Shown here in pieces: positions 24,523 through 33,022 of a DNA stretch of 64,000 nucleotides. Origin of the DNA: Solirubrobacterales bacterium (lineage in GTDB: Bacteria; Actinomycetota; Thermoleophilia; Solirubrobacterales; 70-9); the NCBI GenBank assembly GCA_035573435.1, contig DATMZR010000031.1:62001-126000 (forward strand), read 5' to 3'. The notes under the pieces were generated by a model. It had not been told where the DNA came from and made no database searches. It was given only the letters and a program-made list of their open reading frames with translations. Within the stretch, counting starts at the first letter, position 1. Each line of letters begins with the position of its first letter. A program made the position numbers and the translations under genes.

Positions 24523-24568
<46 letters not shown>

Positions 24569-24778
24569 ATCCCGCACTAGCAAGGGGGTAGAGCCTCACC
24601 CGCTGCGCTGACCCTGGCGCTGCTGGGGTCCTCTTCGGGGTCCAACCGAGCCGTGCCGGACCCGCTCGCCGGAGAGAAGCCGGACTGAGCGACTGCGACA
24701 CGGGGTGGTCTTGTTCTGCTTTCATCTGATATGGAGGGCACGCGTCGAGGGTGTGCGGGCCCGGGAAGGGAGGACGAC

Positions 24779-25951
24779 ATGAGCAGGGGATGGGCGATCG
24801 TGACCGCCGTTGTTGCGGCGGGCATGGTGGCGCTCGGGGCGGCCACCATGGCGAGCGCCGCGGACAGCATTTACTGGGGTAATGAGGGCGGCGATACCGT
24901 TCAGGTCGGGAACCTGAACGGCACCGGCAGCCCCACGACCCTGTGGAGCGGCGGCGGCGGCCCGTGCGGGGTCGCGCTTGATCCGGCGGCGGGCAAGATC
25001 TACTGGGCCAACTTCAACGGAGGCCAGATTCAGGTAGCGAACCTGAACGGCACTGGCAGCCCATCGACCCTGATCGGCGGCCAGGACAACCCCTGCGGGG
25101 TGGCGATCGACCCCATGGCCCACAGGATCTACTGGGCCGAGTTCTGCGAAATCCCCGGAGCCACCTGCGGAACGATCCGGGGAGCCGACCTGGCGGACGT
25201 CTCGGGCACTGCCGCAACCCTGGTTACCGGCGAAGCCGGTCCGAGCGGGGTGACGCTTGACCGCGCGGCCGGCAAGATCTACTGGACAAACCAATCTCCC
25301 GCGGGGACCCCTCCGGGCTCGGTGCGGCGCGCAAACCTCGACGGAACGAATACGGAGACCGTGGTCGACAACCAAGCCAACCCGATCGGGGTGGCGATCA
25401 ACGCTGGCAGGATCTACTGGTCCAACCTCGGGCAATGCTGCAGCGGTCCCGGAGCGATACGGGTCGCGAATCTGGCGGACGTTTCGGGCACTACCACCGA
25501 CCTGTTCAGCGGCGAGAGCGGCCCTGGCGGGGTGGCGATCGATCCCACAGCGAACAAGATCTACTGGGCCAACTTCGGCCCCAGTGAAATCCGGGTCGGG
25601 AACCTGAGCGGCACGGGCACCGCCTCGACACTGTTCGGCGGCCAGAGCTTCCCGCTCTTCCCGGCGGTGCTGCGGGCACCTGTGAGCGATGGGCGTCCGG
25701 CAATCTCCGGCGGAGCCAAGGTGGGCAGGGAGCTCACCTGCCAAACGGGGAAATGGGCACCCGACCTGATCGGCGCATTCCTGTACAGGGCACCTGGCAG
25801 CTTCGCCTATCAGTGGAAGAGGAATGGGTCGAACGTCGCCAACAGCGCGACGTTTAAGCCCACCCTGGCCGGTGACTACACCTGCACAGTGACCGCCGCC
25901 AACCAGGCCGGGTCGACGTTGCAAACGAGTTCTGTGAAGAAGGTCAAGTAG
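24779..25951 (+). CDS. Secreted beta-propeller-like (YWTD/NHL-type repeat) protein with Ig-like tail
   Basis: A 390-residue exported protein with a signal peptide ending near ATMASAA (residue ~28). At least six repeats of about 42-50 residues follow, each with GVA[IL]-D followed by ...KIYWxN..., then a G-x-[IV]-[RQ]-V-x-N-L stretch; this resembles YWTD/LDL-receptor or NHL propellers. Residues ~315-390 look like an Ig/PKD-like domain (QWKRNGSNVANS, AGDYTCTVTA). It may bind surface ligands; no catalytic residue is seen. GGGAAGGGAGG ends ~5 nt before the ATG. It is the sole gene between the two tRNA-Asp 3' halves. Confidence 0.8.
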   Translation: MSRGWAIVTAVVAAGMVALGAATMASAADSIYWGNEGGDTVQVGNLNGTGSPTTLWSGGGGPCGVALDPAAGKIYWANFNGGQIQVANLNGTGSPSTLIGGQDNPCGVAIDPMAHRIYWAEFCEIPGATCGTIRGADLADVSGTAATLVTGEAGPSGVTLDRAAGKIYWTNQSPAGTPPGSVRRANLDGTNTETVVDNQANPIGVAINAGRIYWSNLGQCCSGPGAIRVANLADVSGTTTDLFSGESGPGGVAIDPTANKIYWANFGPSEIRVGNLSGTGTASTLFGGQSFPLFPAVLRAPVSDGRPAISGGAKVGRELTCQTGKWAPDLIGAFLYRAPGSFAYQWKRNGSNVANSATFKPTLAGDYTCTVTAANQAGSTLQTSSVKKVK

Positions 25952-26013
25952 GTCAGACTCGGGAGTTCACCCGGAGGCACCGGATTGAGCATGGTCATGC
26001 CGGATGCTCGGAG

Positions 26014-26087
<74 letters not shown>

Positions 26088-31159: not shown

Positions 31160-31394
31160 TCAGCAGGTGTCTATGCGTCCATCCCGAGGTTGCCCAGCGC
31201 CGCCTGAGCCCGTGGCCGCGACGCGCCCTCGGAGGGCTGGATCAAGAGCCAGCCGGACCCCGAGAACGACATCGGTGCCGGTCAGGGGCAGGAACTCCGC
31301 ATCGGGGTCGTAGAGCACCAGCAGGCCCTCCACGGTCGCCCCTTCGGATCGCGTCGAAGCTCTTCCGCACGATCTCCACGTTCTGCTTCGACAT
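31160..31394 (-). pseudogene. SnoaL-like gene, frameshifted and truncated
   Basis: From ATG 31394 the frame reads MSKQNVEIVRKSFDAIRRG, close to the start of the three intact SnoaL-like genes upstream, but shifts after ~20 codons; the continuation VEGLLVLYDPDAEFLPLTGTDV lies in another frame, and the remaining ~100 codons of the domain are missing or unrecognisable. Its spacing to the upstream gene (3 nt) repeats the junction between the two intact genes at 32481/32477, so it is the damaged second member of a duplicated pair. Confidence 0.75.
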
Positions 31395-31397
31395 CGC

Positions 31398-31844
31398 CTA
31401 CTCCGAGAGCCCGGCGGCTTCGAGGGTTTCGCCAGTGAGTCCGAGCGCGTGAAGCGCACCTTTCGCGGTCAGGTGGTCCTCGACCCTGATGAATCGCCCG
31501 TGTCGCACCCAGAAGCAGTGGTAGATATCGCCTTCCAGCGCCACGCCGCTCGCGCTTCCCTGTGCCGAGATGCGCGCGTGTACCAGAACCCGATCATCGG
31601 TAATCGCCCTCGCGTCCTCGACCACGTATCGGTAATCCCACGCGCCGCGGTACTCGGTCAAGAATCGCGCGATTTCCTCGTGTCCGTGGCAGGGCCGCGC
31701 CTCCGGGAACTTGCGAACCGGGTAGTAGTCGCCGTCGGGATCCCAGAACCCGGCGACCCACGCCACGACCTCTTCGATTGGCAGGTCTTCGGCAGGTGGC
31801 TCCTGCAGGAAGCGGCGCACGATCTCCACGTTCTCCTGCGGCAT
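31398..31844 (-). CDS. SnoaL-like (NTF2-fold) protein
   Basis: A 148-residue NTF2/SnoaL-like domain protein beginning MPQENVEIVRRFLQE and ending ETLEAAGLSE. Cone-shaped alpha+beta barrels of this type often act as isomerases, cyclases or ligand binders; no specific activity can be given. It is the first member of the downstream duplicated SnoaL pair. Its start region up to the neighbouring tRNA-Val fragment closely repeats that of the gene at 32481-32885, with 25-30 bp missing. No Shine-Dalgarno is evident. Confidence 0.8.
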   Translation of the reverse strand: MPQENVEIVRRFLQEPPAEDLPIEEVVAWVAGFWDPDGDYYPVRKFPEARPCHGHEEIARFLTEYRGAWDYRYVVEDARAITDDRVLVHARISAQGSASGVALEGDIYHCFWVRHGRFIRVEDHLTAKGALHALGLTGETLEAAGLSE

Positions 31845-31882
31845 CGCCCGCGCAGTATTTCGCTCTGGCTCCGTCGGGCCGA

Positions 31883-31930
31883 TGGGCGGTGCCGGCTCGA
31901 ACCAGCGACCTCCTGCTTGTAAGGCCGGCG
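31883..31930 (-). repeat. tRNA-Val 3'-half duplicate
   Basis: Matches the 3' half of the intact tRNA-Val (32950-33022): the T arm, variable region, anticodon and part of the anticodon stem. One base is deleted in the T stem and one mismatch lies beyond the anticodon. The match stops on the 5' side of the anticodon arm, the same position as for the tRNA-Asp fragment at 24521-24568. Confidence 0.85.
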
Positions 31931-32075
31931 GCCCCGTGCGCTTATTCAAGCCTTTCCGGCTTGGGGAAGCTCGTTGTCGGCCTAAGCGCACGAGGCGAAA
32001 TTCGCCAGGATTCGGAATCAAATCACTGGGTTTGGGCACCAGGAGCGGTCCCGTGCCCGGTGGTGACGCGACGCC

Positions 32076-32477
32076 CTACTCCCGCAGCCCGGCGGCTTCG
32101 AGGGCCTCGTCGTACTCCCAGAAGTACCGCGCCCGGACGATCCTTCCGCCTCGCAAGAGGAATACGGCTGCCATCGGCGTGTCGAAGGACATTCCGGTGT
32201 CCCTGCCCCGAGTTACGTAGCGAAACCGGGCCAGCACCTGGTCGTCGCCGACCGGACGAATTTCGTCCACCTCGGCACGAGCCTCCTCCCAGGAGTCGCG
32301 CAAGCGTTTAGCCTGCCGCCTCCACGCCCCGATCCCCTGCGGCTCCTCTCCCTCGGGCCAGCCTTTCGGCGGCGTCACGACGACCTCAGGGTCCCAATGC
32401 TCGGCCCATTCATCCAGGTCTCCCTTCGAGAAGAGCTCGTTCACGCGGCGCACGATCTCTACGTTCTCCTGCGACAT
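32076..32477 (-). CDS. SnoaL-like (NTF2-fold) protein
   Basis: A 133-residue NTF2/SnoaL-like protein beginning MSQENVEIVRRVNELFSKGD and ending DEALEAAGLRE. WDPEVVVTPPKGW and RFRYVTRGRDTGM follow the strand pattern of ketosteroid-isomerase-like folds. It starts 3 nt after the stop of the paralogue at 32481-32885, so the two are surely co-transcribed. The function is unknown. Confidence 0.85.
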   Translation of the reverse strand: MSQENVEIVRRVNELFSKGDLDEWAEHWDPEVVVTPPKGWPEGEEPQGIGAWRRQAKRLRDSWEEARAEVDEIRPVGDDQVLARFRYVTRGRDTGMSFDTPMAAVFLLRGGRIVRARYFWEYDEALEAAGLRE

Positions 32478-32480
32478 CGC

Positions 32481-32885
32481 CTACTCCGAGAGCCCGGCAG
32501 CTTCGAGGGCTTCCCGTCTGGAGCGGTAGCCGAGGATCGCTCGGACGACCCTTCCCTGGCGGAATTCGTACAAGTCGAACTGGTGGGTGTCTATCGAGAT
32601 GCCGCTCGCCTTGCCCTGTCCCTTCCAGTGCGCCGCGCAGACCACTCCGTTCGGGGTCTCGATGTACTCCTCGATGTCTGCGTGCAGCTCATCGAAGGCA
32701 TCGGCCCAGAGCGTGAGATTTGCCTTGATCGCCTCGACGCCCTCCACCTGCACGGGCTGATCCGGAGCGTTCTGCCGGTCCTCCAGCACGGCATCCGCCG
32801 CGAAGAGTTCACCGAGGCCCTCGAAGTCACCTCGGTTCAGAGCCGCATTGCCGCGTCTTGTCGCCTCCACGTTCTCCTGCGACAT
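32481..32885 (-). CDS. SnoaL-like (NTF2-fold) protein
   Basis: A 134-residue SnoaL-like protein, MSQENVEATRRGNAALNRGD at the start and REALEAAGLSE at the end. It lies directly on the 3' side of the tRNA-Val gene and is followed after 3 nt by a paralogue. Its conserved centre VEGVEAIKANLTLWADAF and AAHWKGQGKASG resembles ester-cyclase/KSI-like members. No catalytic assignment is possible. Confidence 0.85.
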   Translation of the reverse strand: MSQENVEATRRGNAALNRGDFEGLGELFAADAVLEDRQNAPDQPVQVEGVEAIKANLTLWADAFDELHADIEEYIETPNGVVCAAHWKGQGKASGISIDTHQFDLYEFRQGRVVRAILGYRSRREALEAAGLSE

Positions 32886-32949
32886 CGCCCGCGCAGTATC
32901 GCGCTCTGGCTCCGCCCGATGGCCCCGTGCTCAAGGGCTTTCGGGCCGA

Positions 32950-33022
32950 TGGGCGGTGCCGGGCTCGAACCAGCGACCTCCTGCTTGTAAGGCAGGCGCT
33001 CTCCCAACTGAGCTAACCGCCC
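32950..33022 (-). tRNA. tRNA-Val (anticodon TAC)
   Basis: A 73-nt cloverleaf on the minus strand. Acceptor GGGCGGT pairs with ACCGCCC, D arm TAGCTCAGTTGGGAGAGC, anticodon stem-loop CTGCCTTACAAGCAG with anticodon TAC, and T loop GGTTCGAGCCC. The discriminator is A and CCA is not encoded. Its 3' half is repeated at 31883-31930. Confidence 0.97.

Follow-up and report, generated by a model that had tools for sequence, protein, structure and literature searches.

Two SnoaL units behind a tRNA-Val gene

The DNA analysed here (hereafter the window) is a stretch of 64,000 nt from a metagenome-assembled genome (MAG) of a Solirubrobacterales bacterium, an actinobacterium of soil, and the locus of interest, on its minus strand, consists of a tRNA-Val(TAC) gene followed by two short units of SnoaL genes. 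All coordinates are those of the whole window, and the evidence throughout is sequence inference from MAGs. A sequence-only reading had described the locus as a tRNA-Val and a duplicated SnoaL gene pair in two tandem units; the anatomy that it gave held up, the duplication of the gene pair did not.

The complete tRNA-Val(TAC) gene (32950..33022), recognized by ARAGORN and by the Rfam tRNA model, is the host tRNA of the locus. It is followed by what we call the left end of element 1 (32905..32949), formed by TCGGCCCGA, an insert of about 24–26 nt and CGGAGCCAGA, and then by a leader, GCGCGATACTGCGCGGGCG (32886..32904), which differs at one position from the leader found genome-wide (see below) and carries GATACT 15 nt before the ATG. 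The leader opens into the SnoaL gene A1 (32481..32885; 134 aa), and a second SnoaL gene, B1 (32076..32477; 133 aa), starts 3 nt after A1. The right end of element 1 (31931..32075), which contains GTGCGCTTA ... TAAGCGCAC, adjoins a copy of the tRNA-Val 3' half (31883..31930) that corresponds to nt 25–73 of the gene with 96% identity, one C of the T arm being missing. The second unit repeats this order, with a left end, TCGGCCCGACGGAGCCAGA (31864..31882), a leader, GCGAAATACTGCGCGGGCG (31845..31863; again one mismatch to the genome-wide leader), the SnoaL gene A2 (31398..31844; 148 aa) and, 3 nt further on, the pseudogene B2 (31160..31394). On the minus strand the spacers are 45 nt from the tRNA to the leader of A1, 145 nt from B1 to the tRNA 3' half and 19 nt from the 3' half to the leader of A2; the 3-nt spacer is GCG in both units.

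A1, B1 and A2 were all assigned to Pfam SnoaL_2 (PF12680), with E values of 4.8e-17, 1e-14 and 2.2e-7 and scores of 62.9, 55.4 and 31.9 bits against a curated cut-off of 27; a search of NCBIfam with A1 returned only a ketosteroid-isomerase-like match, below the cut-off. In a three-frame translation B2 opens with the SnoaL start MSKQNVEIVRKSFDAIRRGD, then loses the frame and ends early; its frame-shifted remainder reached no Pfam family and gave a short, weak match to members of the family (best E 0.004). Thus, the complete tRNA, the three SnoaL genes, the 3' half, its beginning within the anticodon arm and the decaying fourth gene all lie where the earlier reading had placed them. Element 1 measures 1.02 kb from the tRNA to the 3' half, and the two SnoaL genes are its sole genes in the list of open reading frames (ORFs) and by Pfam. 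The tRNA-Val gene and its 3' half stand as direct repeats, as attL and attR of an integrated element would, which would make the complete gene a reconstituted attachment (att) site, attL, and the 3' half a putative att site between two elements. The first and the middle att-like sites are thus present in tandem, and a distal one behind B2 was not detected.

The units share an end and carry different genes

Only the tRNA 3' half and two adjacent blocks, TCGGCCCGA and CGGAGCCAGAGCG, are common to the two units alone, with an indel of about 24–26 nt between the blocks; the best stretch upstream of the leaders of A1 and A2 is identical in 56 of 58 columns. The DNA beside the tRNA is thus truly shared, and unrelated flanks with a coincidental tRNA similarity, the finding against which the sequence-only reading had staked its claim, were not encountered. 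Within the left end of element 1, the insert is similar to the terminus of the right end (score 31.5; 1 of 2000 shuffles as high), which suggests that it may be the stub of a further boundary, left by a third, deleted neighbour. The leader and the 3-nt gap, offered earlier as marks of one repeated unit, are present in both units as described and are not specific to a unit, given 53 copies of the leader in the genome and a gap of 3 nt in 23 of the 27 intervals between neighbouring genes of the family.

The genes themselves differ. A1 and A2 have 46 of 129 aligned residues in common (36%), and A1 and B1 have 43 of 132. When the ends were trimmed, the best relatives among 69 full-length members of the family, namely those within the fetched stretches of the genome, were on contig C43 for A1 (31%) and on contig C19 for A2 (28%). 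For only 6 of 67 members was the best hit in the same locus (median best-hit identity, 40%), so that local duplication is not the main source of the SnoaL arrays of this genome. By these comparisons A1 and A2 are related at the level of the family and no further: the two units would share the site of attachment as well as a left end, and their cargo genes are different.

The right end of element 1 has a counterpart elsewhere in the genome. It aligned with the right end beside a tRNA-Gly 3' half on contig C36 over 98 of 131 columns, above all of 100 shuffles, and was found again by search. Similar ends recur at other tRNA genes, with 95 of 107 columns alike between the tRNA-Gly left ends, and from 85 of 105 to 100 of 112 between three right ends at tRNA-Val(CAC).

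Copies of tRNA 3' halves lie downstream of ten tRNA genes

With the 45 tRNA genes called by ARAGORN, 609 kb of the genome was searched, and copies were counted when 23 nt or more matched at an identity of at least 90%. The fetched stretches do not include three of the 46 Rfam tRNAs (on C14, C2 and C25), which were therefore left out, and one of the 45 calls (on C41, inside a repeat-protein gene) is probably false. Ten of the tRNAs (Val-tac, Val-cac, Asp, Ser-cga, Gly-gcc, Cys, Lys-ctt, Arg-ccg, Arg-cct and Arg-acg) were found to have 3'-half copies, 15 in total, every one of them on the same strand as its tRNA, downstream of it and within 12 kb, with none upstream and none on the opposite strand; of 12 further matches elsewhere, most are these copies hit again by a sister tRNA. 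Queries with 5' halves gave no match nearby and two elsewhere, at a single place on C43. Most copies begin at nt 25–33, in the anticodon arm, and those of two tRNA-Arg genes begin at nt 51–53. One-sided 3'-half copies of this kind are the signature of a recombinase-like boundary, and the boundary of that type suspected earlier at the tRNA-Val anticodon arm is therefore part of a pattern seen behind 10 of the 45 calls.

A second case of the same architecture is found in the window itself, where the tRNA-Asp(GTC) gene detected by ARAGORN (26013..26087, minus strand) is followed 1.44 kb downstream by an identical copy of its nt 30–75 (24523..24568, minus strand; 46 nt, 100%). In the interval between them (24523–26087), the opposite strand has a beta-propeller/PKD-like ORF, and neither a SnoaL gene nor a leader is present.

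Several further tRNA fragments were seen. On C41 (L247:2593-6847), three tRNA-Val(CAC) 3' halves stand in tandem; their right ends are related and have many GCGCACATCC-like repeats, and the cargo includes repeat proteins. Short tRNA-Arg 3' fragments (L115, L242 and L240) are preceded in four places by CTCGCC[CT]TCC[AG]GGCTCGCTG, and a similar motif lies near tRNA-Val(CAC); such motifs may represent a second kind of end. A lone tRNA-Gly 5' half on C43 (L111:2271-2311) comprises nt 1–41, is identical to the gene on C36 and is cut in the anticodon arm; other DNA follows, with a SnoaL leader about 275 bp further on.

Eleven intervals between a tRNA and its 3' half make up 1.27% of the genome and hold 9 of the 53 leaders (expected 0.67) and 16 of the 103 SnoaL_2 domains (expected 1.31); Poisson values for these counts disregard the clustering of leaders and genes and are not taken as probabilities. 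These leaders and domains sit in the Ser, Cys, Val-tac and Arg-ccg intervals. Of the 46 Rfam tRNAs, 5 are followed on the same strand by a leader at a distance of 0–400 bp, whereas the null gave a mean of 0.19 and reached this value in 0 of 20000 simulations; the null places tRNAs singly at random and is optimistic, since tRNAs cluster. Other cargo includes a DUF5122 beta-propeller protein (Gly) and a FAD-binding protein (second Ser interval), and the N-terminus of a trehalase-like gene overlaps the Lys interval. Because 44 of the 53 leaders lie outside the intervals, the tRNA-anchored elements account for only part of the spread of the SnoaL family. Beta-propeller repeat genes of the DUF5122 (delta-60) type are also dispersed in the genome (L106:10369-12747, L129, L113 and L247), and one of them yields the false ARAGORN call, as tRNA-Ala.

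The leader and the head block of the SnoaL genes

The leader, GCGAGATACTGCGCGGGCG-ATG, occurs in 53 copies at up to 3 mismatches, 27 of them exact, in a genome of 2.58 Mb, and the reversed pattern, used as a control, in none. Most copies stand ahead of SnoaL genes; some, in the alignment, lead into other sequence. Alignment of all 53 revealed a sharp upstream edge at -20, the lack of a conserved -35 region, and conservation that runs on through the first codons, ATGTCGCAGGAGAACGTGGAG, to give a conserved head block (leader and first codons) of about 45 nt. The 103 SnoaL_2 domain matches of the genome lie in many cases in arrays with 3-nt gaps and with a conserved head and tail. In the fetched stretches, 95 start blocks were found, 69 of which open full-length genes (100–220 aa), and 34 of these 69 have the leader. 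The codon for Ser2 is TCG in 63 of the 66 full-length genes with a Ser at this position, as compared to 101 of 351 Ser codons in the gene bodies; the start is thus constrained, or shared, as DNA.

In Actinobacteria, a TA-like signal that precedes the start by about 10 bp marks a gene as leaderless (PMC3160421). Ahead of 406 other long ORFs of this genome, TANNNT is enriched 12–16 nt before the start (7–14 counts per position, versus about 0–4 elsewhere), and the GATACT of the leader begins at -15, within this peak. Because of this match in position, and of the published signal, the leader is likely to be a leaderless promoter.

The core of the leader is present in three of the four families of the order (29 genomes out of 232), and two head-block patterns gave no match each in viral contigs. 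Two families of upstream sequence precede several leaders, GCTTTGCATGGAAAGC...GACACGTTCAGCA at about six sites and CGAGCCACTGGGGCCGTCC at four.

Several pairs of leaders have long stretches of upstream DNA in common (109 of 126, 68 of 73, 56 of 58, 73 of 89, 71 of 86 and 54 of 67 columns) with no downstream match above shuffles; unlike most, one pair is alike on both sides (58 of 72 columns upstream and 106 of 123 downstream). Since most pairs that share upstream DNA have unrelated DNA after the head block, this block is a recurrent breakpoint at which mosaics switch partner. Either it is an active hinge or it is merely the longest stretch of identity among members of the family. It may further be asked whether the head block would combine the roles of promoter, start and recombination hinge, with the junction of EAAGL[SR]E, stop, 3 nt and ATG adding genes in register and with tRNA elements carrying arrays in. 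We regard this fuller scheme as rather unlikely; if true, it would let any upstream region take on any gene body that ends in the head block, and so build up and reshuffle an enzyme family of very large size in an integron-like, integrase-light manner.

Integrases and the locus in relatives

The genome holds two PF00589 proteins above the cut-off, on C43 and C7, both away from the tRNA-Val element. They are among three matches at E values up to 10, and the third, on C28 (E 0.0148), was taken as chance. The protein on C43 passes an Xer-type NCBIfam model and that on C7 (321 aa) looks Xer-like. An integron was also considered and rejected for want of an integron integrase among these matches; the C43 protein scored 131 bits for that model against a cut-off of 265. 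A tblastn search with 13 integrase frames gave no match in the tRNA-Val element. Just upstream of the tRNA-Gly gene on C36, a SnoaL start stands in frame with a C-terminus like that of a tyrosine integrase (L106:9798-10006); the integrase-like part (L106:9821-10006) is weak (tblastn E 0.004; no Pfam match) and is not used as support.

The window's locus is flanked by a peroxidase-like gene upstream of tRNA-Val and by a lysozyme-like gene beyond B2, names that come from reading the sequences and not from a family search. A tRNA-Val(TAC) gene lies near the same peroxidase-like gene in five relatives (G001, G002, G003, G007 and G017), and in G002 and G003 the lysozyme-like gene is kept as well. 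The first three belong to the same genus, two of them being the soil MAGs AC_56 and AC_57. In these three genomes neither a leader nor a SnoaL gene was found behind tRNA-Val (ORF lists of G001 and G003, DNA of G002), and G003 has a 29-nt tRNA-Val 3' fragment of its own at the locus. Relative to its neighbours, the tRNA-Val(TAC) gene of G002 (L194:2063-2135) has the opposite orientation to that in the window and in the other relatives.

Elements of the same geometry occur at other tRNA genes. In G049, a MAG of another family, a tRNA-Cys gene is followed by a leader, a SnoaL gene, an integrase remnant (PF00589, E 0.0015), a tRNA-Cys 3' half (42 nt, 100%), and again a leader and a SnoaL gene. In G007, a tRNA-Arg element combines an integrase fragment (E 0.00075) with a leader ahead of the 3' half, and that genome has a tRNA-His 3' half as well. 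Intact integrases adjoin the 3' half in elements at tRNA-Lys (G046) and tRNA-Met (G017). These integrases lie near tRNA genes, and none shares the right end of the tRNA-Val element. A right-end probe for autonomous relatives was dominated by its tRNA part, and the remainder matched the window's own genome only.

Probable stacked elements and other explanations

We favour, with a probability of roughly 0.8, the view that the locus consists of integrase-less elements, stacked at the tRNA-Val attachment site, with different SnoaL cargo. The tRNA-Val(TAC) gene would serve as the attachment site, with the crossover in the anticodon arm and a copy of the tRNA 3' half carried at the site of the element; at least two elements with related ends and different SnoaL genes would stand in tandem, in the order tRNA (attL), left end, leader, A1, B1, right end, 3' half, left end, leader, A2 and B2. 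The tandem order would reflect successive insertions, that is, stacking by accretion, presumably made by a tyrosine integrase, and the leader would act as the leaderless promoter of each array. The elements are best read as decayed or as cis-mobilizable, in the manner of cis-mobilizable elements (CIMEs).

Several observations weigh against this view. The window's own elements have no integrase and no clear remnant of one. The far end of element 2 is missing: a decayed tRNA end behind B2 was considered and rejected, as 27–31% of shuffles scored as high. The right-end DNA is absent from all of the 60 other genomes searched, and, apart from the tRNA half, the stretch that these two units alone have in common is short. 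Finally, since the Val-cac, Asp, Lys and first Gly intervals carry other cargo or no leaders, SnoaL genes are not the defining cargo of such intervals.

The sequence-only reading, that one unit consisting of the tRNA 3' half, the leader and the SnoaL pair was duplicated in tandem, with later divergence and decay of one copy, would account for the like gene order and 3-nt gap, for the near-identity upstream of the leaders (56 of 58 columns) and for the partial decay of the second pair. However, order, leader and gap are all family-wide, A1 and A2 resemble each other no more than other pairs of family members do, and a right end of the tRNA-Gly-like kind sits between the units; moreover, a tRNA half without function would have no reason to be conserved, yet it is 96% identical. 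We consider such a duplication very unlikely. Homologous recombination at the head block, by which the 3' half and the leader would have been copied once and joined to a different gene body with no site-specific integration at this locus, has a better claim: pairs elsewhere that are alike upstream and unrelated downstream (L107/L112, 109 of 126 columns; L111/L113, 68 of 73) have homology that ends at the head block, and neighbours in arrays are rarely closest relatives (6 of 67). It leaves unexplained, however, why 3'-half copies are found behind 10 tRNAs, always downstream and mostly from the anticodon arm, and why the elements of relatives have integrase genes. As the sole explanation of the locus it seems improbable, and it may act in addition to insertion. 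That the locus records no event at all, its tRNA-like similarity and common leader being due to chance or to faulty assembly, has in its favour that the assembly is a MAG and that some tRNA calls are false (as on C41); in view of the complete strand and side bias of 15 copies (each with an identity of 90% or more over 23 nt or more), and of the recurrence of the architecture in G049, an unrelated MAG from a different family, it is barely credible.

Families of about a hundred divergent SnoaL/NTF2-fold members in small genomes are usually ascribed to duplication. Here, neighbouring array genes are seldom each other's closest relatives, and some of the family lies in tRNA-anchored elements, features that point to acquisition and re-assembly. 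By way of the tRNA sites and the head block, SnoaL genes may be acquired by uncultivated soil bacteria that are Thermoleophilia-like, and the locus cautions that leaders and tRNA fragments shared in tandem do not prove gene duplication.

Comparison with known systems

Literature searches found nothing linking SnoaL with a genomic island, an integrase and a tRNA, and nothing on topic for SnoaL in Thermoleophilia; among the papers listed on gene family expansion in related taxa, none, judging by title, concerns a SnoaL case. The locus most resembles CIMEs, remnants of integrative and conjugative elements (ICEs) or integrative and mobilizable elements (IMEs) that have kept the repeats of the att sites, have lost the genes for integration and transfer, and are found in tandem (PMC5704250). 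As in those cases, att repeats are kept, genes for integration and transfer are lacking, and elements stand in tandem behind one site; unlike them, the elements are very small (1.0 kb for element 1) and ten tRNA sites are involved in one small genome. No resident ICE or IME with ends matching those of the window's elements was found.

The islands at ssrA in Dehalococcoides are likewise in tandem, carry repeats of the 3' end of a tRNA-like gene, in several cases lack an integration module, and spread rdhA (PMC3146451). The likeness extends to the spread of one variable gene family, rdhA there and SnoaL here. However, the Dehalococcoides islands use a serine recombinase and the single ssrA site, whereas here many tRNA genes are involved, with tyrosine integrases in relatives and SnoaL genes as cargo. 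Tycheposons, described as elements of 4–200 kb with a recombinase (PMC10872708), are also cargo elements anchored at tRNA genes and tied to tyrosine recombinases; element 1, with 1.02 kb and no recombinase inside, was considered as a tycheposon and rejected against their 4–200 kb and tyrosine recombinase.

The leader resembles the start regions of leaderless actinobacterial genes, with a -10-like hexamer near the start, here GATACT at -15; at about 20 nt, in 53 copies with 27 exact, it is far more uniform than this class of promoter requires. As proteins, A1, B1 and A2 pass the cut-off for SnoaL_2 (PF12680) and are of the NTF2-like kind; what sets them apart is their setting, a single genome with 103 such domain matches, many of them in arrays.

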